Source of the DNA: an uncultured Bacteroidaceae bacterium
GTDB taxonomy: Bacteria; Bacteroidota; Bacteroidia; Bacteroidales; Bacteroidaceae
DNA: 64,000 nt
Direction: 5' to 3'
Assembly: GCA_905235565.1 (NCBI GenBank)
Contig: CAJOLR010000003.1
Span: 1 to 64,000 of the forward strand
The stretch's first letter is position 1. Each line of letters starts with the position of its first letter. This document shows, one piece after another, positions 14,318 to 38,771 of the stretch. The position numbers and the translations under genes are program-made. Under the pieces are notes generated by a model. The model ran no database searches. It had not been told where the DNA came from and worked only from the letters and a program-made list of their open reading frames with translations.

Positions 14318-15094
14318 TTATCTGTCACGGATAATACCTCTCTCGGAACGTGAGATGAAGTCTATTATGTATTTGACTTGAGGATCTTTTGATATCTCAT
14401 TCTCCTTGATTGCCGCTATGGCCTGAGATACGTTCAGTCCCTGCTGATAAATGATGCGGTATGCGTTGTGGATGGCCTCGATGGTCTCGGCGCTGAATTT
14501 CTCGCGGCGCAGACGCACCAGATTTATACCCATATAAGTGAGTGGGTTGCGACCGGACATGGTGAATGGTGGTACATCCTGGCTTACACCACTTCCGCCC
14601 TGTATCATTACATACCCTCCTATATGTGTAAACTGGTGGATAAGCACACCGGCACTGATGGTGGCGTGGTCCTCGACTTCCACCTCACCGCCCAGTTTCG
14701 TGCTGTTGCCGATTATGCAGTAGCTGCCAACGATGCAGTCATGAGCTATATGCATGCTTTCCATAAGCAGGTTATTGCTGCCAACCACGGTCTTGCCCCT
14801 TGAGGCGGTACCACGGTTGATGGTTACGTTCTCACGTATGCGGTTATTGTCACCTATTTCGGCTGTAGTCTCCTCGCCGATAAACTTGAGGTCCTGCGGA
14901 ATACCTCCGATGACTGCGCCCGGATGTATGGTATTTCCGTTTCCGATACGTGAGCCGTACATGATGCTTACATGCGGCATCAGTATATTGTTATCGCCTA
15001 TCACAACGTTCTTGTCGATGAAACAGAACGGACCTATCTCAACGTTCTTGCCTATCTGGGCAGAAGGGTCGACGTATGCCAGGGGACTAATCAT
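14318..15094 (-). CDS. lpxA: Acyl-ACP--UDP-N-acetylglucosamine O-acyltransferase
   Basis: Left-handed beta-helix hexapeptide repeats; SPLAYVDPSAQIGKNVEIGPFCFID; next to lpxC/lpxD. Confidence 0.95.
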   Translation of the reverse strand: MISPLAYVDPSAQIGKNVEIGPFCFIDKNVVIGDNNILMPHVSIMYGSRIGNGNTIHPGAVIGGIPQDLKFIGEETTAEIGDNNRIRENVTINRGTASRGKTVVGSNNLLMESMHIAHDCIVGSYCIIGNSTKLGGEVEVEDHATISAGVLIHQFTHIGGYVMIQGGSGVSQDVPPFTMSGRNPLTYMGINLVRLRREKFSAETIEAIHNAYRIIYQQGLNVSQAIAAIKENEISKDPQVKYIIDFISRSERGIIRDR

Positions 15095-16482
15095 CTGTTT
15101 TCTCTTTTTACTATTTGAACCATAAATTCAGACTCTGCAACCAATTTGTCGGCCACAAAAGCATATCCCTTGATTGATAATATATTATGACGAATTGGGG
15201 CAGTCCTTACAACACGCATCAGAAGGGTGTCGCCAGGTACTACGGCCTGACGGAAACGGGTGTTGTCAATCTTGATGAACATTGCCTCAAAATCCTTCGG
15301 CTCGCCAGTGGTCTGAAGAGCCAGAGTGCCTCCCAACTGTGCCATTGCCTCGATTATGAGCACACCAGGCATGATGGGATGCTCGGGGAAGTGCCCGGTA
15401 AAATAGAACTCGTTGTTGGTGACGTTCTTTACTCCCTCGGCATATAGGTCAGTCAGCGTGATTACCTTATCCAACAGTTGCATAGGGAAGCGGTGCGGCA
15501 TAACGGCCTGGATCTGCTGCAGGTTCATTACCGGCGGTACAGACGGATCATATGCGGGAGCCTGGACGTCGTTAAGGATTATGTTCTTGCGCAATATGCG
15601 TGCGAACTTGTTGTTAATGGTGTGGCCGGGGCGGGTTGCGATGATGCGTCCCTTGATGGGCTTTCCTACAAGTGCCAGGTCACCTATGATATCCAGCAGC
15701 TTATGGCGTGCCGGCTCATTGTCCCACTGTAGCTGTTTATGCATGATATAGCCCAGTTTTGTGGCATCCATCTTTGGTACACCCATAACCTCACATATCT
15801 TGTCATAGCGTTCCTGAGGCATTTCCCTCTCATAAATCACTATGGCATTATCCAGGTCACCTCCCTTGATGAGACCGGCACCGAGCAGGGGCTCAATCTC
15901 ACGAACGAATACGAAAGTGCGGCTGCGGGCTATCTCAAAGGGGAAATCCCGCATATCATCCAATGATGCGTACTGGTTGTACAGTATCTTGGAGTCATAT
16001 GATATGAGTACGTTTACACTGAACTCATTGTCTGGCAGAAGTATTATGGACGAGCCAGTAGTCTCATCCTTGACCTCTATCTTGTTCTTGACCACATAGT
16101 AGTCTTTCAGTGCGTCCAGCTCCTTTATTCCCACCTTCTGGATGTTCTCAACATACTCAATGGCACTGCCGTCCAGGATGGGGAATTCAGGCCCGTTAAC
16201 CTCTATGTGGCAATTGTCTATTCCGGCTGCGTAGAGTGCTGCCAGGGCATGCTCAACGGTACTTACCTTTACGTTGCCCTTGAAAAGTACGGTACCACGC
16301 TGGGTCTCACGGACGTTTTCTGCAAAAGCCTCGATTACCGGCTGGCTCTCCAGGTCGATTCGCTGTATCTTGTAACCGTAGTCAGCGGGGGCCGGATTAA
16401 ATGTGACGGTCAGTTCAAGACCGGTGTGGAGGCCCTTTCCGCTAAGAGAGAAACTACTCTTTAAAGTCTTCTGTTTGTACAT
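15091..16482 (-). CDS. lpxC/fabZ: Bifunctional UDP-3-O-acyl-GlcNAc deacetylase / 3-hydroxyacyl-ACP dehydratase (LpxC-FabZ)
   Basis: LpxC N-terminal part (VSTVEHALAALYAAGIDN, HKLLDIIGDLAL) fused to FabZ (HFPEHPIMPGVLIIEAMAQ). Confidence 0.95.
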   Translation of the reverse strand: MYKQKTLKSSFSLSGKGLHTGLELTVTFNPAPADYGYKIQRIDLESQPVIEAFAENVRETQRGTVLFKGNVKVSTVEHALAALYAAGIDNCHIEVNGPEFPILDGSAIEYVENIQKVGIKELDALKDYYVVKNKIEVKDETTGSSIILLPDNEFSVNVLISYDSKILYNQYASLDDMRDFPFEIARSRTFVFVREIEPLLGAGLIKGGDLDNAIVIYEREMPQERYDKICEVMGVPKMDATKLGYIMHKQLQWDNEPARHKLLDIIGDLALVGKPIKGRIIATRPGHTINNKFARILRKNIILNDVQAPAYDPSVPPVMNLQQIQAVMPHRFPMQLLDKVITLTDLYAEGVKNVTNNEFYFTGHFPEHPIMPGVLIIEAMAQLGGTLALQTTGEPKDFEAMFIKIDNTRFRQAVVPGDTLLMRVVRTAPIRHNILSIKGYAFVADKLVAESEFMVQIVKRENR

Positions 16483-23299: not shown

Positions 23300-24178
23300 G
23301 TGTCGATAACAATAAAAGGCTTAAGCCATTATTACCCAAACGGTAAGAGAGCTCTTACCGATATAAACCTGGAGATACCTTCCGGAATGTTCGGACTTTT
23401 AGGGCCTAACGGCGCCGGCAAGTCCACCCTTATGCGAATACTTGTAACCCTGATGGAACCTACAGAAGGGCAGATAGATGTGTGCGGTTATGATATACGT
23501 ACACAGCGCAAGGAAGTAAGGCGCATTTTGGGTTATCTGCCGCAGGATTTCAGGTTTTTCGCCAAGTATAAGGTCCGTGAATTCCTGGAGTACGCAGCGG
23601 CGCTGACAGGTATGACCAACTCAGCGGAGCGCGGCAAGGCTGTTGACGCCATGCTGGAGCAGGTGGGCCTGTACGAAGCGCGTGACCGTTATGCGCAGAA
23701 TCTTTCGGGTGGTATGAAACGCCGTCTCGGTATTGCCCAGGCTCTGATTCATAAGCCTTTGGTCCTGGTGGTTGACGAACCTACCACCGGACTTGACCCC
23801 GAGGAACGCATCAGGTTCCGTAACCTGCTTAGTGAGGCCAGTTCAAAGGACACCACAATTATACTTTCAACCCATATTGTCGGCGACATATCAAGTTCAT
23901 GTACTGAAATGGCTATGCTCAACCAGGGCCAGGTCATGTTCAGGGGATCGCCTGCAGGAATGCTCAGGGAGACCGAAGGCAAGGTCTGGCGTATGCAGGT
24001 TACCAATGAGCAGTACGCTGAGATAAATCAGAAATACGCAGTGATATCCACTATACCACACGGTCTGGGATGGGATTTGCAGGTTGTGGCAAAGGAGTGT
24101 CCCGGATATGGAGCCGTGAGTTATCCTCCAAACCTGGAGCATGCATACGTTTATTTTACTGAGATTAAGGATAAGTAG
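23300..24178 (+). CDS. ABC transporter ATP-binding protein
   Basis: GPNGAGKST, LSGGMKRRLGIAQAL, LVVDEPTTGLDP, STHI; GTG start. Confidence 0.92.
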   Translation: MSITIKGLSHYYPNGKRALTDINLEIPSGMFGLLGPNGAGKSTLMRILVTLMEPTEGQIDVCGYDIRTQRKEVRRILGYLPQDFRFFAKYKVREFLEYAAALTGMTNSAERGKAVDAMLEQVGLYEARDRYAQNLSGGMKRRLGIAQALIHKPLVLVVDEPTTGLDPEERIRFRNLLSEASSKDTTIILSTHIVGDISSSCTEMAMLNQGQVMFRGSPAGMLRETEGKVWRMQVTNEQYAEINQKYAVISTIPHGLGWDLQVVAKECPGYGAVSYPPNLEHAYVYFTEIKDK

Positions 24179-27100
24179 TGATGATGCTTGGATTGTATAA
24201 CATACGCATAGTATCCAAATACGAGACAAAACTGCTTGTCCGTGGCTGGTTCTTCAAGATATTTGCATTTCTGGCGCTGTCTGCCTCAGTGATTATAGGA
24301 TCCATCTATATACTGTCACCCAACCAGCAGCCACAGATGGTCAACAGGTCAGTCATTCCCTATCTGTTCATGCTGGTCATGAACCTGGGGCAGGCTGTAG
24401 TGTCGGTATTCCTGGCATCGGAGTACCTTAAGCGCGACAAGCAGCTGGACACGTCGGAGGTGTTCTACACCCGGCCGCTCAGCAACGCCGAGTATCTGAT
24501 AGGCAAGATGTGGGCTACGCTCAAGGTGTTCTTCATTCTTGATGTGCTGGTGGCTCTGATAGCATTGGTCATGAGCCTTATCAAATACGGCTTTGCCCTG
24601 GATTATCTGAGCTATATATGGTATTTCCTGCTGCTGTGCGTTCCCACGCTGGTGTTCATAGTGGGTCTGTCAACCACCCTTATGCTGATACTGAACAACC
24701 AGGCTATCACCATGGTGATACTGCTGGCTTACATAGGCGTGACTCTATTTTATATTGACAGCCTTTATTATTACCTGTTTGACTATATCGGGTTCAATCT
24801 GCCTATGCTCAAGTCGGTGGTTACCGGTTTCAGCGGATTGCCCAGGCTGATAAACCACAGGATGTGCTATCTGCTGCTTGGCATAGGGCTTATCCTTACG
24901 GACGTGTCGCTGTTCCATCGTCTTGCCAACTCCAGATACAGCCTGCTTCCGTGGCGTATTGCCGCGGCGCTGTTCATAGCCGCTGGCCTTTTTGCCGGTT
25001 ACAGGCACGTGCATCTATATAAGGTGGACGAGAGATACAGGGCCGATATGGTGAAACTGGACAACGATTATGTCCATATTGGCGGTGCCGTGGCCCAGTC
25101 CTGCGAACTTACCGTTACACAGACGGCCGATTCACTCAGCGTGAGAGCCGATATGACGGTAAGCCCCAGGGAGAGCTCCGCTAAACTGGTATTCACGCTC
25201 AATCCGGGATTCCGGGTTAACGGCATAAGTGTCCCTGGCCACCGTATTGAATATGAGCGTCTGAAGCACCTTGTAGTGCTGTCATTTGACCGGACGTTGC
25301 CCGAAGACCAGCCTGTCAACATAATAATGGATTACAGCGGTAAGGCCGATGACCGTATCTGCTATCTGGATATTACGTCCGAAAAGATGCTTGCGAACGT
25401 CAAGGTCCTCTCCATGCTCAATGTGGGCAAGCGTTATCTTTTTCAGGACAAGGACTATACGATGCTTACCCCCGAGAGCTACTGGTATCCGCGTCCCGGT
25501 GTTGCGTACAGTGACCAGAGTCCAGAGTGGCAGATGTCATATTTCACGGATTTTGTTGTCAACGTAACTCCCAATCCGGGACTTACACCCATATCACAGG
25601 GCTTGTGCACCGCAAATGATGACTCAACCATGTTCACTTTCAGGCCGGAGTCATCACTTCCGTCGGTATCACTTATGATTGGCGACTACTCTCCCAAGTC
25701 TATAACCGTTGACTCAACCGAATATACGGTGTGGAAACTGGGCCGTTGGGACGATCAGTTTGAGGTATTTGACTCAATTCGTGATACAGTCCCGTATATA
25801 ATCAGGACCAGACGCAGGAATATGGAGTATCAGGCCGATATGGCCTATCCGTTCAAACGCTTCCAGATAGTGGAGGTTCCGGCGCAGTTCGCGTCATACA
25901 AGCGTGTATGGACATCGGCATACGAACAGCTGCAGCCCGAGATGGCGCTGGTTCACGAGAGGGGCTTTGACATGAACGTATTCCAGTTCCGCAATATGAA
26001 ACGGATGTGGAGCGGCAGCAGGAACCGCCGCAATAACAACATGACCGAAAAGGAGATACTTGTGAATATCCTGAACAATTCAGTCTCTTTCATGATGCAG
26101 TCAGGAAATATGAGCGGCAGCAACAGGAACGGTCAGTGGACTATGACCCAGGTGGACAATCCATACTTTTACCGTCCTCTGTTCTATAATTTCAGGTACA
26201 ATGTCTATTCATCTGACTGGCCTATGGCAAACAGGATGGTGGAGACCATGACTGCCACAAGCCAGAATAACGGAAATGCATGGATGAGGCGGATGAACGG
26301 CCTGTCCGAGGATGAGAAGGCACTTATCCTGATGGGAAAATACAGTTTTGACCGTATCATGTCAGATCCGGAATGGGAGGACCTGGCCGACAATGCCCTG
26401 GCTTTGAAGACAAAGGACTTCTTTGCTCCCGTATCGGTGGCAGTGGGATATGAGTCATTGATAGACTCCATATCGGCCAAGACAAGGGAGAAAGAGTTTG
26501 CCAACGTATCATTCGATTCAATCCTTGACTGGATACAGAGTTATTCGGGAATAAGCCTGCAGGACAAGATAGAGGCCTGGAGTGAACAGGCGCAGCTGGC
26601 CTGCTACAAGGTGGGTACTCCGCAGGTTACTACGGTCACCACCGATACGGCCGACATTTACCAGGCCGAGGTTGCGTTTGAGAACATATCGGACAATCCC
26701 GGTTATGTGAATGTTGAATTCATATTCAATGAGATTGAGAATGCAGGTGATGAGGATAAGCCCAAGAGCATGGTGGTAAGCGTAGGTGCACATGAGACTC
26801 GTAGGATTGTTACGCATTGGTTCAATATCCCCAGCAGCATAAGGGTCAACACAATGCTTTCATCGAACCTTCCCCATGATGTCAATCTGAATAATTCGGA
26901 CTGGAGTACATACGAAGATACTGACCTGGAGCCAGAGGGAGTATATACATTGAACAGCGGTGTAGACAATACGCTTCCAGGGGAGATTATCGTGGATAAT
27001 GAGGATGCGGGATTGTTCACACTCTCAAGACCGCTCAGAACAGGTTATCTGTACAAATGGATAGACAAGGCGAAGGAGAACAACAACGAATTCATATATG

Positions 27101-27564
27101 AGGGATTCTCAGATTGGCGCACTTACAGCCAATGGACCCTTGTGACAGACCAGAACCTTTACGGTGATTACATACGTTCAGGTTATATAATTTCTCCGGG
27201 TGACGGTTCTCAGTATGCCCGCTGGAGCATACCATTGTCAGTTGCAGGTGTTTACGATGTCTATTTTTACGTATCACCAACCTTGTACAGCAACAATAAC
27301 CGTAACCGCAGATGGAACAACAATAACAACAATAATAACAATAATAACAACGGCCGGAGAGTTACCAGTGACTACAACTTTGAGATTGAGCAGTTCAATA
27401 TGAAGGACCACGTTTCAATGAACATGTGGCGTGCCGATGAAGGCTGGAATCTGCTTGGTTCGTTCAGATTTGAGGCTGACACCGTCAGGGTGACTCTGAA
27501 CAACCGGTCCAGCATAAGGGTGATAATAGCCGATGCTGTCAGGATGGTTAAAAGGGAAAGATAA
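24178..27564 (+). CDS. Large ABC permease: TM domain + M1-peptidase-like region without HExxH + poly-Asn linker + golvesin/xanthan-lyase CBD-like C-terminal domain
   Basis: About 6 N-terminal TMs; VPAQFASYKR...QPEMALVHERG resembles M1-fused permeases; N12 tract; C-terminal GVYDVYFYVSP...GWNLLGSFRFEADTVRVTLNNRSSIRVIIADAVRMV. Confidence 0.75.
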   Translation: MMMLGLYNIRIVSKYETKLLVRGWFFKIFAFLALSASVIIGSIYILSPNQQPQMVNRSVIPYLFMLVMNLGQAVVSVFLASEYLKRDKQLDTSEVFYTRPLSNAEYLIGKMWATLKVFFILDVLVALIALVMSLIKYGFALDYLSYIWYFLLLCVPTLVFIVGLSTTLMLILNNQAITMVILLAYIGVTLFYIDSLYYYLFDYIGFNLPMLKSVVTGFSGLPRLINHRMCYLLLGIGLILTDVSLFHRLANSRYSLLPWRIAAALFIAAGLFAGYRHVHLYKVDERYRADMVKLDNDYVHIGGAVAQSCELTVTQTADSLSVRADMTVSPRESSAKLVFTLNPGFRVNGISVPGHRIEYERLKHLVVLSFDRTLPEDQPVNIIMDYSGKADDRICYLDITSEKMLANVKVLSMLNVGKRYLFQDKDYTMLTPESYWYPRPGVAYSDQSPEWQMSYFTDFVVNVTPNPGLTPISQGLCTANDDSTMFTFRPESSLPSVSLMIGDYSPKSITVDSTEYTVWKLGRWDDQFEVFDSIRDTVPYIIRTRRRNMEYQADMAYPFKRFQIVEVPAQFASYKRVWTSAYEQLQPEMALVHERGFDMNVFQFRNMKRMWSGSRNRRNNNMTEKEILVNILNNSVSFMMQSGNMSGSNRNGQWTMTQVDNPYFYRPLFYNFRYNVYSSDWPMANRMVETMTATSQNNGNAWMRRMNGLSEDEKALILMGKYSFDRIMSDPEWEDLADNALALKTKDFFAPVSVAVGYESLIDSISAKTREKEFANVSFDSILDWIQSYSGISLQDKIEAWSEQAQLACYKVGTPQVTTVTTDTADIYQAEVAFENISDNPGYVNVEFIFNEIENAGDEDKPKSMVVSVGAHETRRIVTHWFNIPSSIRVNTMLSSNLPHDVNLNNSDWSTYEDTDLEPEGVYTLNSGVDNTLPGEIIVDNEDAGLFTLSRPLRTGYLYKWIDKAKENNNEFIYEGFSDWRTYSQWTLVTDQNLYGDYIRSGYIISPGDGSQYARWSIPLSVAGVYDVYFYVSPTLYSNNNRNRRWNNNNNNNNNNNNGRRVTSDYNFEIEQFNMKDHVSMNMWRADEGWNLLGSFRFEADTVRVTLNNRSSIRVIIADAVRMVKRER
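27316..27351 (+). repeat. AAC/AAT trinucleotide tract encoding 12 consecutive Asn
   Basis: aacaacaataacaacaataataacaataataacaac read directly. Confidence 0.95.
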
Positions 27565-27579
27565 AAACAACAACAGAAT

Positions 27580-29088
27580 ATGATAAAAAAACAATCTTTG
27601 ATTACTGCAATTGCTGTGTTTGGATTGGCCACGGCCTTCGGAACCGGAGCCAAGGCACAGATTGTACTTACCATGGAGCAGGCTCTGGAGTATAGTGCCG
27701 AGCATAATCCGGATCTTAAAAACTCCCGCATGAGCATGGAGCGTTACGAGCAGAACCTGATTGCCCAGAGGGCATCACTCAAGTCAAGGTTCTCACTTAA
27801 CCTGCAGCCACTATCATACTCCCAGTCGCGTCAGTTTGACAGCCGTTACTCGGACTGGTATACTAACCGTTCATTCTCATCTTCAGGCACATTCAGCATT
27901 TCACAGCCAATTATATGGACTGATGCCACGCTGTCACTGAACAACAGCCTGTCATGGCAGAACAACGAATCTACCGTAGGCGGTAAAACCAACACCAACC
28001 GCGCTTTCAGCAACAGTCTTTATCTGAGTCTGAACCAGCCCCTGTTTACTTATAACAGGACCAGGATGAACATGCGTCAGATAGAGATGGACTATGAGAA
28101 TGCCCGCATAAACTACGCACTGCAGAGACTTAACGTGGAGCGTAACATAACAAGCCAGTTCTACAGCCTGTTCATGTCACAGCAGAACCTTGCCATCAGC
28201 GAATCGGAACTTGAGAACGCCGAGAGGAACTTCAACATAATAAAGGACAAGGTTGAGGCCGACCTGACTACAAAGGATGAATACTATCAGGCAGAGCTTA
28301 ACCTCGCCCAGTCACGTTCCAGCCTGGAGAACCAGAGGGTGAGTCTGGAGAACGCCAAGGATAATTTCAAGCAGGTTCTGGGAATACCCCTGGAGGAGGA
28401 TATAATTGTGGTGTGCGACATTGAGGCCGAACCGGTATATGTGGATTTTGACAAGGCACTTGAGAGTGCAATGACAACAAGACTTGAGTTGAGACAGCGT
28501 CAGATTTCAAGGGAACAGCAGGAGATGTCTATGATTCAGGTCAAGGACAATGACAGTTTCAACGGCAGCATATCGCTTTCGCTCGGTATCATGGGCGATA
28601 ATCCGGAATTTAACCATGTGTATGACAATCCTACCAACAATCCCCGCGTGTCTGTTTCATTCAGCGTTCCGCTCTATGACTGGGGTGCACGCAAGGCACG
28701 CATCAAGGCCGCGGAGATAGGAAGGCAGATCTTTGAGCTGAGCGCCGAGGAGGAACTCAAGAGCATTGAGATGAACGTACGCAGTACCTGCCGCAGTCTG
28801 GATAATCTGGTAGGACAGATCTCGATAGCCGAGCAGAGCCAGCGTAACGCCCAGCTTACATACGACCTCAACGAGGAGCGTTACCGCAACGGTGAGCTGA
28901 CCGGACTGCAGATGAACCAGTTCCAGAATCAGCTGTCAAACAGCAAGATGTCATACACACAGGCCATCATAAACTATAAGGTCCAGCTTCTTAATATCAA
29001 GGTCCTGACCCTATTTGACTTTGAGAAGAATGAGCCGGTTGTACCTATTACGTATGAGCAGAGCACTGAAAAGAATAAGAAGAAATAA
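27580..29088 (+). CDS. TolC-family outer membrane efflux protein
   Basis: Signal peptide, long alpha-helical repeats, two TolC-like halves (TKDEYYQAELNLAQSRSSLENQRVSLENAKDNFKQVLG). Confidence 0.9.
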   Translation: MIKKQSLITAIAVFGLATAFGTGAKAQIVLTMEQALEYSAEHNPDLKNSRMSMERYEQNLIAQRASLKSRFSLNLQPLSYSQSRQFDSRYSDWYTNRSFSSSGTFSISQPIIWTDATLSLNNSLSWQNNESTVGGKTNTNRAFSNSLYLSLNQPLFTYNRTRMNMRQIEMDYENARINYALQRLNVERNITSQFYSLFMSQQNLAISESELENAERNFNIIKDKVEADLTTKDEYYQAELNLAQSRSSLENQRVSLENAKDNFKQVLGIPLEEDIIVVCDIEAEPVYVDFDKALESAMTTRLELRQRQISREQQEMSMIQVKDNDSFNGSISLSLGIMGDNPEFNHVYDNPTNNPRVSVSFSVPLYDWGARKARIKAAEIGRQIFELSAEEELKSIEMNVRSTCRSLDNLVGQISIAEQSQRNAQLTYDLNEERYRNGELTGLQMNQFQNQLSNSKMSYTQAIINYKVQLLNIKVLTLFDFEKNEPVVPITYEQSTEKNKKK

Positions 29089-29104
29089 TAAAAAAACAAC
29101 AGAT

Positions 29105-30166
29105 ATGAAATCAGGAATCATCGTACTTTCGCTAACAGCGCTTTCTGTCCTTCTGATGACAGGGTGCAGACAAGAGAACACTATGAATCGTAATGAGATA
29201 CCCACACCGGTATCCGTCTCTGACATTTCCTATGGCTCTGTGAGCAGGATATTCACCACAAACAATACCGCCATATCAAATGCTGAGGCCGAGCTGTCGA
29301 CAGAGATGGCCGGAAAGTATCATCTTCAGAAGAATCCGGCTACCGGCAAGCCTTATAAACTGGGTGACAGGGTTAAGAAAGGAGCTCTCATTGTCCGTAT
29401 TGAGGACAAATCTTATGAGAACGGTATCTCAATCGAGTCCAAGCGTCTTAACCTGGAGCTTGCCGAGCAGGAACAGGCCAAGACAAAGTCACTCTACGAG
29501 AAGGGCGGTGCCACATTGACTGAGGTAAAGAACTCCGATATCAAGATCATGAACTCCCGTCTGGACTATGAGAACGCCCAGATGAATCTGGAGAAGATGA
29601 ACATAAGGGCTCCGTTCGACGGTGTGATAGTCAATCTTCCGCATTTCTCGTCCGAGGCCAAGGTAAACAGCGGTACATCTGTGGTCACCATTATGGATTA
29701 CAGTTCGATGCTGCTTGAGATAAATCTGCCTGAGAGTGCGATCAATGAGGTAAAGGTAGGACAGAAGGCTTACATTACCCATTATACTTTGCCCAAGGAC
29801 ACCATTATCGGCGAAATTACAGAACTTTCTCCGGCCATCAGTTCCGAGACCCGTACATTCAAGGGCAAACTTGTGATTGACAACAAGGATTTGCTTATCA
29901 GGCCGGGTATGTTCGTAAAGGCCGATATCGTAACGGAGAGCCACAGCTCGACAATAGTTATACCTAAGAATATTGTCCGCAACGAGCGCAACAGACGTAT
30001 CGTGTTCGTGGTAGACCAGGGCATAGCCAGGGCAAAGCAGATCAGATTGGGGCTTGAGGAGAAGAACAGCGTTGAGGTACTGAGCGGTCTGGATAAGGAC
30101 GATCAGCTGATCATACGAGGTTTTGAGACCCTGAGAGACGGTTCAAAGGTTAAGATTCAGAGATAA
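29105..30166 (+). CDS. RND efflux membrane fusion protein (periplasmic adaptor)
   Basis: Lipobox LLMTGCRQ; lipoyl/barrel-sandwich (NIRAPFDGVIVNLPHFSSEAKVNSGTSVVTI). Start taken at MKSGIIV (29105), inside track ORF 29015. Confidence 0.9.
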   Translation: MKSGIIVLSLTALSVLLMTGCRQENTMNRNEIPTPVSVSDISYGSVSRIFTTNNTAISNAEAELSTEMAGKYHLQKNPATGKPYKLGDRVKKGALIVRIEDKSYENGISIESKRLNLELAEQEQAKTKSLYEKGGATLTEVKNSDIKIMNSRLDYENAQMNLEKMNIRAPFDGVIVNLPHFSSEAKVNSGTSVVTIMDYSSMLLEINLPESAINEVKVGQKAYITHYTLPKDTIIGEITELSPAISSETRTFKGKLVIDNKDLLIRPGMFVKADIVTESHSSTIVIPKNIVRNERNRRIVFVVDQGIARAKQIRLGLEEKNSVEVLSGLDKDDQLIIRGFETLRDGSKVKIQR

Positions 30167-33274: not shown

Positions 33275-33338
33275 ACGTTTTAAAAAGCCAGACGAACAGA
33301 GGGAGTTTACTCACTCAGTCGTGGCGGGAAAAGGTCGT

Positions 33339-36300
33339 ATGAAATACAAGTCATTTATAGACAGAAGGGTAACTATCTGCATGCTTCTGGTAGCGATGAC
33401 GCTGCTGGGCTATTTCTCGTACAAGCAGTTGCCGGTTGAACTGCTGCCCAATACCGAGTTGCCCCAGCTCTATATTTCAGCATCATCGCGCAGCGACCTG
33501 AGTCCGGCATACATGGAGCAGCAGGTCATTATCCCGCTTGAGGGTGCCGTCAGTGCCGTTGGCGGTGTCGAGAATATGGAATCGACAGTATCTGGCAGGC
33601 AGGGCTCCATCAGGGTTGATTTTAAGAGAGGTACCAATCTTAAGATGACCACAGTAAAACTTCAGGAGAAGATCGCATCCATAAGGTCCGATTTTCCGTC
33701 CGATGTTTCGGTTAATGTCCAACAGGCCAATGTCAACGGCATAAGCAACCAGTTTATGTCAATTCAGGTGCGTGGGGCTGGAGGAGTGGACCGTTTGAGG
33801 GCCATTGTCGATAAGGATGTTGTACCCCGTCTGGAAAGCATAGACGGCATTGCAGGCGTGACGGTTTACGGAGGTAGGGTAAAATCCATTGAGATTCGCT
33901 CCAATCCTGAGGCCATGAGTGCATTGCACATATCCAACTCGCAGATAAGCCAGGCGCTAAGCCAGTATAACCAGGAACGTACATTCCTGGGGTATATCAG
34001 TGAGCCGGACAAGAAATACTATGTCCAGCTGGATGCCAACTATGACGACGTGTCGCAGGTTGAGAATCTGGTGGTGGCACAGGGCCCTGTATACCTAAAG
34101 AATGTAGCCACGGTATTCTTTGACTATAAGGAGGAGACTACCATAAGCAGAGTGAACGGAATGGATGCCATCTCCGTATCCCTGGTCAACGGAGCAGGTG
34201 AGAATCTGATGGACCTGTCCAAGAGGACGCTTAAGCGTATTGACGAGGTTAACCGTGAGGTGGCCGGTCAGGACCTTCAGCTTGTGGTTCAGTCCAACTC
34301 TGCCGACCAGATAAGCAACAATATATCCCAGATAGTAAAACTTGCTTTGATTGGCGGATTACTGGCAATTCTGGTTCTGTGGTTCTTCCTGCGCAACCTG
34401 AGCCTGGTGTTTTTCATAGCATTGTCAATTCCGGTTTCGGTATTGTCGGCATTCAACATATTCTATGCAGCCGGCATATCCATCAATACACTTACTCTGT
34501 TGGGTATCGCATTGGCCATAGGTATGTTGTTGGACAGCAGTATAGTGGTGCTGGAGAACATATACCGTCTGGCCTCCATGGGAATGCCGCCGCGACTGGC
34601 GGCATTGCAGGGAGTCAAGGAGGTACGTAAAGCCCTCATAGCGTCCACGCTGACTACAATAACGGTTTTCCTGCCGTTTGTGTTCTCCGATGAACCGATG
34701 ATTAAACTGCTGGGTCGGAATATAGGCTTTTCAATTATCTCTACGCTGATATTCTCACTTCTGGTGGCTGTTACTTTCATTCCAATGGCAACAGCTGCCA
34801 TGATGGAGCGCGGGGGTGGCGGAAACAGTGTCTTCTTCAAGAAGATGTCCATACACGACCGCCCGCTTCAGATGTATTCCACACTACTCAAGACATGTTT
34901 GCGTAAGCCAGGTCCTACAGTGGGTACAGCAGTGGCTATCCTGGTTATAGCATTCATATTCGCCCTGTCCCGCAATACCGGCCAGAACCGACAGGTGGAC
35001 AGTGACCGGATCAATGTAAGCATTACCATGCCCAGCGGAAGCACTCTGGATGACACAGACCAGGCGACTGCCATGCTTGAGGCACGTCTGGACAGCTTCC
35101 CTCAAAAGAAGGATGTAATGAGCCGTATCCAGGAGGAGCAGGCCTCTATCACAGTTACTCTAAAGGAGGGCTACAACAAGAAGGGTGGTATGACCATTAA
35201 CCAACTTGTTGAAGAGATGAGTGATGTGCTTGCCCTTGAGAATGAGATTGACGTCAGGGTTACTCCAGGTTATGCCAGAGGTAATCAGAATGCATCAGGA
35301 CTCAGTTCCATTACAAGGTTCATGAGCGTGCTTGGCGTGGGCGACAACACGGAGAGAATAGTGGTCAAAGGTTCCGATACCGAGACAATGCGTATCGTCT
35401 CGAATAACCTGAGATACTATCTGGAACAGTTGGAGTTTGTCCGTAATGTCAGAGTAGACAATCCCGGTGGCCGTCGTGAGGTCCAGCTTACGTTCGATCC
35501 TGTGGCAATGGCATCGTACAATATCACCAATCAGGCTGTCACATCTGCATTGGGTTCACTAAACCGTTCCACCAGTACCGGAGCCAGCTTCAAGGTTGGT
35601 ACCGACGAATATGACATAGTCATAATGGATGACCTCACCGAAGAAGAGGAGGAGGCCGGACGTTGGGAGAAGACCATGGATGACCTTCGTCGTGTCATAG
35701 TCACTGATGCAAATGGCGGCACCCATGAGTTGCAGCAGATTGCCAACATCCGTCTTAGCCGCGGACCGTCGGAGGTGCGTCGTGTCAACCGTGACCGCAG
35801 GGTAAATGTTACCTATTCAATATCCCAGAGCGAAGAACTTCCCAAGGATGTTCTGGACGGCTATCACGACCAGATAGATGACCTGATAGCAACTTACAAC
35901 CTACCGTCAGGTCTGGCACTTGAGGTTCAGCGCGGCGATGACTCCACAAGTGAGTTCAAGTTTCTGATACTGGCATCCATCATACTGATATTCATGATAC
36001 TGGCATCGGCATTCGAGTCACTTACCACACCTGTGGTACTGCTGTTCTCAATACCGCTGGCAGCCATCGGCTCACTCCTGGCCCTGTTGCTGTCGGGCAA
36101 CAACCTGATGAATGCCAATACCCTGACCGGATTCCTTATCCTGCTGGGTATTGTGGTCAATAACGGCATAATACTGATTGACTACTCATCAACCTTGCGC
36201 CGTAGGGGGTACAGCCGCATGAGAGCCATCATGACCAGCGGATACTCGCGCCTGAGACCTATCTGCATAACCACTATCACCACTATAGTCACGCTTATTC

Positions 36301-38042
36301 CGATGGCCATGGGTGACAATGAGTATGCTGGTGCGATAGGTGCTCCGTTTGCGCTGACTGTAATAGGAGGTCTTACATTCTCGGCTATACTTACCCTGCT
36401 GCTTATTCCTACGCTCTACATCTCATTCGAGAACATGAGAGCCTGGTATAAGGGATTGGGCCGGTACACCCATATTCTGCACATAATCATATTTGCAGTA
36501 GGTGTGCTTGCAATCATATCCGGTGTCAGGGGTATATTCAAGATACTGCTTTACATAATTCTGTTGGCCCTGCTAATTCCGGGTGTGACATATTTTGTAA
36601 AGAGCTCCGTAAGGATTGCCCGTAAGGATGTCGTCAAGCCCGATGAACCTATCGTGATAGAGGTGCGTAACCTGGTTAAGGTGTATGACTGGTACAGCCT
36701 GTTCCTGCGCCAGTGGCGTAGCGGACTCAACATACGCCGGCGTCTGGGACTGTCACGCAGTTTCCGTCACGCAAAGGATTTCGTGAGCCTGATATGGCAG
36801 GTTGTCGTGTTTGCATACACCGGCTATCTGGCAGGATGGTATTTTGAGAAACAGGGTTGGATACTGCTAATGACAATCATAACACTGGCAGGTCTGAACA
36901 ATATCATCAGGGCTATCCTGGAGTATATCGCTTTCAATTTCAGGAAAGGTGCCGTGGTGACTAAAGTAATCAGGAAGATACTCTACTGGGTATTACCTAT
37001 ATGTGCCATACTGTTCCTGAACACCCGTCTTGAGAGCAGGGGATTCGTAGTATTCATAGCTGCAGTCTGGTTGCTGGGGCTGCTCATCCGCAAGACATCG
37101 GATTATCTCTATGATAACAACATCAATGTAGAGCGTCTTGATGGTGAAACCGCCAGAATGCGGCGTGCCTGGTTCCTGTTCGTCAAGAGCATACCTATCA
37201 TCGGTAAACGCAAGAAACCGTTCAAGGCCCTGCGTGGAGTATCGTTTGAGATTCACAGCGGTATGTTCGGCCTGCTGGGTCCTAACGGAGCCGGTAAGTC
37301 AACATTCATGCGAATCGTAACGGGTATCCTTAAGCAGAGCTACGGAACGGTGTTCATCAACGGTATGGATACCCTCAAATACAGGGAGGAGCTCCAGAGC
37401 CTTATCGGATTCCTGCCTCAGGAATTCGGCATGTACGAGGCCATGAGCGCATGGGATTTCCTCAATTACCAGGCCATTCTCAAGGGTATAACTGATGAGA
37501 AGGTGCGTAATGAGAGACTGGAGTATGTGCTTACATCGGTACACATGTATGAGCAGAGGAATTCTGCCATCGGATCTTTCTCGGGCGGTATGAAACAGCG
37601 TATAGGTATTGCACTCATACTGCTCAACCTGCCGCGTATCCTTGTGGTCGATGAGCCTACTGCAGGTCTTGACCCCAGGGAGCGTATCCGTTTCCGTAAC
37701 CTGCTGGTTGAGCTGAGCCGTGACCGCATCGTGATATTCTCAACCCATATCATCGAGGATATAGCCAGTTCATGTAATCAGGTTGTGGTTATTGAGAAGG
37801 GTTCGCTCAAGTACTTTGGGGAGCCCAACGATATGGTCAAACTTGCCAAGGACAAGGTATGGCTGTTTGACATAGAGGCTTCCCGTCTGGGTGAACTTGA
37901 CGAGAAACTCATTGCCAACCATATCCAGGACGGCAGCATGATTAAGGTACGCTACATTTCGCCCACATGTCCGTGGCCGGGTGCCGGGCTGGCTGAACCC
38001 AACCTGGAGGATGCATACCTGTGCCTATTGAAAAACTTATAA
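33339..38042 (+). CDS. RND efflux permease fused to extra TM segments and a C-terminal ABC ATPase domain
   Basis: Full RND half-repeats (YKSFIDRRVTICMLLVAMTLLGYFSYKQLPVELLP, IALAIGMLLDSSIVVLEN, IVVNNGIILIDYS), then a complete NBD (GPNGAGKST, FSGGMKQRIGIAL, LVVDEPTAGLDP, STHI) in one uninterrupted frame. ATG 33339 preferred to GTG 33321. Confidence 0.93.
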   Translation: MKYKSFIDRRVTICMLLVAMTLLGYFSYKQLPVELLPNTELPQLYISASSRSDLSPAYMEQQVIIPLEGAVSAVGGVENMESTVSGRQGSIRVDFKRGTNLKMTTVKLQEKIASIRSDFPSDVSVNVQQANVNGISNQFMSIQVRGAGGVDRLRAIVDKDVVPRLESIDGIAGVTVYGGRVKSIEIRSNPEAMSALHISNSQISQALSQYNQERTFLGYISEPDKKYYVQLDANYDDVSQVENLVVAQGPVYLKNVATVFFDYKEETTISRVNGMDAISVSLVNGAGENLMDLSKRTLKRIDEVNREVAGQDLQLVVQSNSADQISNNISQIVKLALIGGLLAILVLWFFLRNLSLVFFIALSIPVSVLSAFNIFYAAGISINTLTLLGIALAIGMLLDSSIVVLENIYRLASMGMPPRLAALQGVKEVRKALIASTLTTITVFLPFVFSDEPMIKLLGRNIGFSIISTLIFSLLVAVTFIPMATAAMMERGGGGNSVFFKKMSIHDRPLQMYSTLLKTCLRKPGPTVGTAVAILVIAFIFALSRNTGQNRQVDSDRINVSITMPSGSTLDDTDQATAMLEARLDSFPQKKDVMSRIQEEQASITVTLKEGYNKKGGMTINQLVEEMSDVLALENEIDVRVTPGYARGNQNASGLSSITRFMSVLGVGDNTERIVVKGSDTETMRIVSNNLRYYLEQLEFVRNVRVDNPGGRREVQLTFDPVAMASYNITNQAVTSALGSLNRSTSTGASFKVGTDEYDIVIMDDLTEEEEEAGRWEKTMDDLRRVIVTDANGGTHELQQIANIRLSRGPSEVRRVNRDRRVNVTYSISQSEELPKDVLDGYHDQIDDLIATYNLPSGLALEVQRGDDSTSEFKFLILASIILIFMILASAFESLTTPVVLLFSIPLAAIGSLLALLLSGNNLMNANTLTGFLILLGIVVNNGIILIDYSSTLRRRGYSRMRAIMTSGYSRLRPICITTITTIVTLIPMAMGDNEYAGAIGAPFALTVIGGLTFSAILTLLLIPTLYISFENMRAWYKGLGRYTHILHIIIFAVGVLAIISGVRGIFKILLYIILLALLIPGVTYFVKSSVRIARKDVVKPDEPIVIEVRNLVKVYDWYSLFLRQWRSGLNIRRRLGLSRSFRHAKDFVSLIWQVVVFAYTGYLAGWYFEKQGWILLMTIITLAGLNNIIRAILEYIAFNFRKGAVVTKVIRKILYWVLPICAILFLNTRLESRGFVVFIAAVWLLGLLIRKTSDYLYDNNINVERLDGETARMRRAWFLFVKSIPIIGKRKKPFKALRGVSFEIHSGMFGLLGPNGAGKSTFMRIVTGILKQSYGTVFINGMDTLKYREELQSLIGFLPQEFGMYEAMSAWDFLNYQAILKGITDEKVRNERLEYVLTSVHMYEQRNSAIGSFSGGMKQRIGIALILLNLPRILVVDEPTAGLDPRERIRFRNLLVELSRDRIVIFSTHIIEDIASSCNQVVVIEKGSLKYFGEPNDMVKLAKDKVWLFDIEASRLGELDEKLIANHIQDGSMIKVRYISPTCPWPGAGLAEPNLEDAYLCLLKNL

Positions 38043-38054
38043 ACAGTTGACATT

Positions 38055-38771
38055 ATGTCAGTAGTCAATACAGTGAAATCTTACGCCCGTCTGTGCGTAT
38101 ACAATATGAGGATCATATTCTCAGGCAAGTTCATCTGGTTCATGCTGGTGGGTTTGGCTCTGTTTTTCTTCCTTATGTATACAGCTGCAGCCAGGGGAAC
38201 TACCTTGAGTCATGGTATGGTTTACAACCAATTGCTCATACCGGGATTGCTGTTGGTATTCTATCCGGCATGTTTCGGCATTCAGAACGATGCCGATCAC
38301 CGCATTCTGGAACTGCTTTTCGGTATTCCCAACTATATGTACAAGGTATGGCTGTTCCGCCTGTTCATGATATATGTAGAGGTATATCTGATTCTGGTGG
38401 TATATGCCTTCCTGGCCAGGATACTGCTCTATCCGGTGGCTCCGTTCACCATGGCGGCCCAGCTTATGCTGCCCGTTATGTTGTTCGGTAACCTGGCATT
38501 CCTGTACTCCACACTTATCCGTAACGGTAACGCAGCGGCAGTACTCTCTGTACTGACGGTGATACTTGCACTGGTACTGGGAAACGTTCAGCTTGTAGAG
38601 AACAAGGTCTGGGATGTAACCATCAACCCATATGATGAGCCGGAGAACATCAACGCCGCCATATGGAGCATGATCCTGCTCAAGAACCGCATCATGATGG
38701 CTGTGGCCGCCATAGTATTTTTGATGTCCGGGCTGCTTGGTTTGCAGAACCGCGGCAAGTTCCTGGGGTAA
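38055..38771 (+). CDS. ABC-2-type membrane permease
   Basis: 238 aa, about 6 TMs, 12 bp downstream of the RND-ABC fusion. Confidence 0.75.
   Translation: MSVVNTVKSYARLCVYNMRIIFSGKFIWFMLVGLALFFFLMYTAAARGTTLSHGMVYNQLLIPGLLLVFYPACFGIQNDADHRILELLFGIPNYMYKVWLFRLFMIYVEVYLILVVYAFLARILLYPVAPFTMAAQLMLPVMLFGNLAFLYSTLIRNGNAAAVLSVLTVILALVLGNVQLVENKVWDVTINPYDEPENINAAIWSMILLKNRIMMAVAAIVFLMSGLLGLQNRGKFLG

Follow-up and report, generated by a model that had tools for sequence, protein, structure and literature searches.

Resistance-nodulation-division (RND) exporters, driven by protons, and ATP-binding cassette (ABC) exporters, driven by ATP, are regarded as two distinct superfamilies. In mycobacteria, the RND protein MmpL7, which has no proton relay (PMC8427324), and the ABC-2 exporter DrrABC are both needed for the same cargo, the lipid phthiocerol dimycocerosate (PMC11539658, PMC8427324), with direct evidence for their cooperation still absent (PMC11539658), while two different RND chains form one mixed trimer in MdtB2C (PMC7015380). 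Here we analyse a 64,000-nucleotide stretch of DNA from an uncultured Bacteroidaceae bacterium (contig CAJOLR010000003.1, positions 1 to 64,000; hereafter the window), in which a single gene at 33339-38042 on the forward strand joins a complete RND permease to an ABC ATPase. This fusion is real, conserved and architecturally unusual, and is built from known modules. Our preferred reading, to which we give a probability of roughly 0.6, is that a type V (ABC-2) exporter has its ATPase tethered covalently to one of the two RND subunits of a pump made of RND, periplasmic adaptor (MFP) and TolC components.

RND and ABC modules in one chain

The fusion frame starts with ATG and runs for 1567 residues without a stop, and an alternative GTG start at 33321 would extend it to 1573 residues. 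Pfam finds both ACR_tran (E 7.7e-165, 550.7 bits against a cut-off of 28), covering a complete RND permease, and ABC_tran (residues 1298-1442, E 5.3e-25) in this chain, in agreement with the open reading frame and with the earlier note's claim that one uninterrupted frame carries the two modules, each of which retains its key residues. Against NCBIfam, the RND half scores 484.5 bits with RND_permease_2, 327.3 with RND_permease_1 and 296 with CusA/CzcA, all under the curated cut-offs of 1250, 1250 and 701.45, and the ATPase 167.3 bits with DrrA and 174.7 with GldA, both under their cut-offs of 312.45 and 402.6; its nearest relatives are DrrA, GldA and ABCA-type ATPases. The full ABC motif set is present: Walker A (GPNGAGKST at residue 1314), Q-loop, signature (FSGGMKQR at 1414), Walker B with the catalytic glutamate (1438/1439) and H-loop (H1470). 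The intact Walker A, signature, Walker B and H-loop reported in the earlier note proved invariant or nearly so among aligned fusions, with K1320, Q1361, S1415, G1416, D1438, E1439, D1445 and H1470 identical in all 31 and position 1321 occupied by S or T. By hydropathy, the RND helices are followed by two transmembrane (TM) helices and then by four more at 1148-1255; since the number of extra helices is even, the fused ATPase would stay cytoplasmic, as had been proposed. The linker itself gave zero Pfam matches up to E 10 and no relative in a sequence search of the PDB.

Used alone as a query, the linker was found in 40 of the order's 294 genomes, spread over 29 of 184 genera. Most of the fusion frames there are ∼1500-1640 residues long, and shorter frames coincide with contig ends or short contigs. 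No stop codon occurs within any of these matches, including the region corresponding to 36480-36650, where the earlier note had considered a frameshift or missed stop in relatives. With the frame intact in homologues, a frameshift, a missed stop and a chimeric assembly are all excluded as sources of the fusion. The named relatives are mostly gut and rumen Bacteroidales, one of them labelled Rikenellaceae. Beyond the order, a few genomes from other orders and classes of the phylum have the linker too, and over all these genomes linker identity ranges from 21 to 49%. A linker profile matched 8 of 396 phylum genomes at E ≤0.001, two of them weak non-fusion matches; the true matches include two from another family of the same class and two from another class. 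The linker was also present in 5 of the 165 genomes of the order to which genome G410 belongs. A plasmid location was rejected, because the linker plus ATPase is not covered to 80% in any plasmid record, and so was a defence system, the PADLOC matches being generic ATPase similarity only.

In the RND half, D399 in TM4, N941 in TM10 and R973 and T978 in TM11 are invariant in 31 homologues. By residue equivalence to AcrB, these homologues keep the counterpart of D407, carry N, S, T or C at the position of D408 and have N at that of K940; the complete AcrB-type relay (two TM4 Asp, TM10 Lys and TM11 Arg/Thr) is therefore not found in the fusion. The second RND permease encoded beside it (RND1) shows the same reduced pattern in 40 homologues, and another RND protein of this genome (L003) has the canonical DD and K. 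Since the TM4 aspartate, the arginine and the threonine are kept, proton drive of the RND half is likely on sequence grounds.

An ATPase split by a membrane insert

In stand-alone ATPases of this type, the sequence opens with a strand I-x-I-x-x-L and reaches the second strand within 20 residues. The cassette's own stand-alone ATPase, ABC1, shows this usual unsplit start, ITIKGLSHYYPNGKRALTDINLEI. In the fusion, the corresponding segment, IVIEVRNLVKVY, with the strand I-x-I-x-N-L-V-K-I-Y, precedes the four TM helices and lies 175 residues upstream of the second ATPase strand. We built a hidden Markov model (HMM) from 31 ABC1-family sequences, joined each 22-residue window of the linker to the remaining ATPase and scored the products. 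For all 39 of the 39 fusions, the top-scoring window closed on the homologous NLVK[IV]Y or on a variant differing from it by one residue; it raised the score by 9-14 bits, against a median gain of ≤1 bit. The AlphaFold2 model likewise shows a strand at this segment, then helices, then the ATPase (mean predicted local distance difference test score, pLDDT, 75.6); it covers part of a single chain, and the pairing of strands across the insert is drawn from DSSP together with the sequence test.

With the first strand placed before them, the four TM helices count, by sequence comparison and predicted structure, as an insertion inside the ATPase domain, between its first two strands. The earlier note had described four TM helices followed by a full ABC domain; the four helices stand, but the order has to be revised to first ATPase strand, four helices and remaining ATPase. 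We know of no type V ABC exporter with TM helices inserted in its ATPase, and such an ATPase constitutes a second structural surprise, independent of the fusion. The insert would anchor the split ATPase to the membrane next to the RND bundle.

Most homologues show four hydrophobic peaks in the insert, with a simple hydropathy threshold giving three or five at times. At two loci (L090:13966-14559 and L093:13667-14260) the insert is only 108 residues long with one or two peaks, consistent with the loss of one TM hairpin, and this natural deletion suggests that part of the insert is dispensable. At another (L092:13686-14627) it reaches 224 residues, enlarged by a low-complexity stretch rich in Gly, Ser, Asp and Arg directly behind the Arg-rich segment.

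A seven-gene cassette and its permeases

The fusion is the sixth of seven genes packed tightly on one strand in the order ABC1, large permease, TolC, MFP, RND1, fusion and small permease (Table 1), so that RND, MFP and TolC genes stand together as in a tripartite RND efflux pump. This order is identical in 26 diverged loci (L070-L095), as far as the contig or fetched stretch reaches, at linker identities down to 25% in local alignment, and it recurs in loci from other families, orders and classes; the flanking genes differ. The two RND genes are adjacent in every cassette examined, and the catalytic sites of both ABC1 and the fused ATPase are complete. Pairwise distances of nine cassette parts correlate with r of 0.72-0.93 (30 loci, with no species-tree control), as expected for co-inheritance. 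Five genomes with the large permease and no fusion, which we considered as operons lacking it, were all cut off by contig ends.

The small permease gave no Pfam match up to E 10 and, in a sequence search of the PDB, one weak match, to a designed protein. Its profile matches exactly those 40 of the 294 genomes that carry the linker. Its AlphaFold2 model (pLDDT 88.8) has the fold of about six helices that is expected of the ABC-2 partner in a type V exporter, an assignment at the level of predicted fold, and Foldseek relates it with a probability of ∼1.00 to NosY, PmtD, ABCG2 and ABCG25 and of 0.97-0.99 to CcmB. It also contains a conserved coupling-helix-like segment, RILELLFGIPNYMYKVW; in our reading, the conserved RILEILFGIPNYRYKVW resembles the coupling-helix region of ABC-2 permeases. 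ATPases of the DrrA, GldA and ABCA types drive ABC-2-type permeases, and the small permease is most likely the dedicated partner of the fused ATPase.

The large permease has a Golvesin_C match and a weak match, under the cut-off, to ABC2_membrane_4. An active M1 peptidase in this protein was rejected because homologues have no HExxH at the aligned position. Within or near Golvesin_C, about a dozen Asn codons follow one another at 27300-27400 of the window and form a low-complexity stretch. Full-length relatives of the large permease exist outside the cassette: in three loci (L132:13870-17304, L133:2601-5903 and L134:10634-13975) no RND gene was recognised beside them in the stretch fetched. 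Another relative of this permease (L135:1332-4667, genome G087) is split in two frames by an in-frame TAA, being either a pseudogene or a sequencing error.

Elsewhere in the window, a 463-residue frame on the reverse strand (15091-16482) apparently fuses LpxC and FabZ, beside two acyltransferase-like genes of the LpxA and LpxD types. The LpxC-FabZ fusion is ordinary for Bacteroidota.

Table 1. Coordinates in the window of the cassette genes and of the parts of the fusion
Feature	Coordinates	Strand	Evidence
Stand-alone ABC ATPase (ABC1), 292 aa, sharing 42% identity with the fused ATPase	23300..24178	+	Sequence comparison
Large ABC-2-like permease, 1128 aa: N-terminal permease, long periplasmic part, C-terminal Golvesin_C	24178..27564	+	Pfam
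TolC-family outer-membrane channel (OEP)	27580..29088	+	Pfam
Periplasmic adaptor (MFP, HlyD_D23), lipobox-like LLMTGC near N-terminus	29102..30166	+	Pfam
Second RND permease (RND1), 1030 aa	30182..33274	+	Pfam; best match of the RND half in this genome, at 29% identity
RND::ABC fusion gene, 1567 aa	33339..38042	+	Open reading frame, Pfam; frame intact in homologues
RND permease domain, residues 4-1030 (PF00873)	33348..36428	+	Pfam; invariant relay residues in 31 homologues
Extra TM helices 13-14, residues 1040-1091	36456..36611	+	Hydropathy; AlphaFold2 helices
Predicted first ATPase beta strand, residues 1107-1116 (within IVIEVRNLVKVY), apart from rest of domain	36657..36686	+	AlphaFold2 strand; sliding-join HMM, 39/39
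Predicted insert in ATPase, ∼175 aa: Arg-rich segment and four TM helices, no Pfam match	36687..37211	+	Hydropathy, alignment, AlphaFold2
Rest of ABC ATPase (PF00005; residues 1292 to ∼1507) and C-terminal extension (∼1508-1567)	37212..38039	+	Pfam, alignment
Fused ATPase motifs: Walker A; signature; Walker B; H-loop His	37278; 37578; 37641; 37746		
Small ABC-2 (type V, predicted) permease, 238 aa, no Pfam match	38055..38771	+	Predicted fold, co-occurrence

Possible modes of coupling and comparison with known systems

Because the cassette is invariant and includes a dedicated permease of predicted type V fold, the fused ATPase most likely powers the 238-residue permease of the next gene, with coupling to the RND pump by tethering. 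In the cycle we propose, the tethered ATPases would bind and hydrolyse ATP and thereby drive the small permease. Starting in the cytoplasm or the inner leaflet, an amphiphilic substrate would be moved by this permease to the RND entrance on the periplasmic side, from where the RND1/RND2 pump would export it through MFP and TolC on the proton-motive force. The fusion would fix both stoichiometry and proximity for this hand-over, and the second ABC module (23300-27564) would belong to the same pathway. The earlier note had suggested a dual-energised or mechanically coupled exporter. Its single RND-ABC chain is borne out and the suggestion is plausible; the cassette shifts the likely target of the ATPase to the small permease, with the RND part tethered.

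Several points weigh against tethering of a type V ATPase. Its pairing with the small permease is drawn from gene order, co-occurrence and a predicted fold, and the Foldseek matches are weak (TM-scores ∼0.5, E-values of 0.02 or weaker), so that the type V assignment holds at the fold level only. The profile comparison of the large and small permeases is weak as well (hhalign probability 2.5), and the proton relay of the RND half is reduced. Finally, two ATPases are needed in an ABC exporter but three subunits in an RND pump, which makes a simple homotrimer of the fusion a poor match. Speculatively, a mixed trimer, for instance one RND1 with two fusion chains, would supply precisely one ATPase pair. 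That such a mixed trimer forms one envelope-spanning machine running on ATP and proton-motive force, its ATPase pair loading substrate through the type V permease into the RND-MFP-TolC channel and its ATPase representing a new architectural type, is an extension we put forward tentatively and hold to be possible rather than probable.

The two related ATPases and two ABC-2-like permeases of the cassette could also form a single heterodimeric ABC exporter docked on the RND pump, with ABC1 and the fused ATPase as one pair and the large and small permeases as membrane halves. That there are exactly two such ATPases, 42% identical, that all four ABC components co-occur and that the permeases give a weak colinear profile match would fit this arrangement, but both ATPase sites are complete, whereas one site is often degenerate in heterodimeric exporters, and the permeases are too diverged for a common origin to show, which makes it unlikely in our view. 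We hold it to be somewhat less likely still that the fused ATPase acts on the RND conformational cycle directly, driving or gating it by way of helices 13-14 and the TM insert, with the small permease left as an accessory. The chain is continuous from RND through TM13/14 and the first ATPase strand to the insert, both modules are conserved, and a reduced relay would allow for a second energy source; yet RND1 has the same reduced relay without an ATPase, which uncouples the reduction from the ATPase, and the adjoining gene encodes, with perfect co-occurrence, a dedicated permease of a fold usually driven by such ATPases. Domain fusions can be neutral, and the two halves might have been joined merely for co-expression or scaffolding while working independently on unrelated substrates. 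We regard this as very improbable: the fusion persists in different orders and classes with linker identities of 21-49%, was nowhere seen split and, on every contig of sufficient length, is accompanied by the same six partners.

Tethering of a type V exporter ATPase to the RND pump remains our preferred reading, and the locus points to a bacterial export machine with two engines, undescribed as far as checked. No published RND-ABC fusion was found in the open-licence literature, subscription papers and protein-database annotations lying outside the search, and the accessible part of a Chem Rev 2021 review mentions none; because of this scope, "undescribed" is provisional. The covalent RND::ABC chain and its invariant cassette across Bacteroidota are strong genetic evidence for RND/ABC coupling, and the fusion allows ATPase residues and proton-relay residues to be mutated independently of each other within a single gene.

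Each of the known systems shares part of this architecture. MdtABC-type pumps, like the cassette, combine two different RND permeases with one MFP and a TolC channel, but they have no ABC component, whereas here one RND chain carries an ATPase and two ABC modules are present. MacAB-TolC also unites an ABC ATPase with TolC and MFP in one envelope-spanning exporter; MacB, however, unites the ATPase with its own permease, and no RND protein takes part, while here the ATPase is fused to RND and the ABC permease is of predicted type V fold. NosFY, PmtCD and ABCG transporters share that permease fold and ATPase type with the cassette, their ATPases being separate or fused to their own permease instead of to an RND pump. 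MmpL7-DrrABC resembles the fusion cassette in that one export route requires an RND protein together with an ABC-2 exporter whose ATPase is of the DrrA type. There they are separate polypeptides, whereas the fusion carries its ATPase within the RND chain, split by a TM insert. Unlike MmpL7, which is without a proton relay, the fusion keeps the TM4 aspartate and has ACR_tran as its best match, and its cassette includes MFP and TolC partners.

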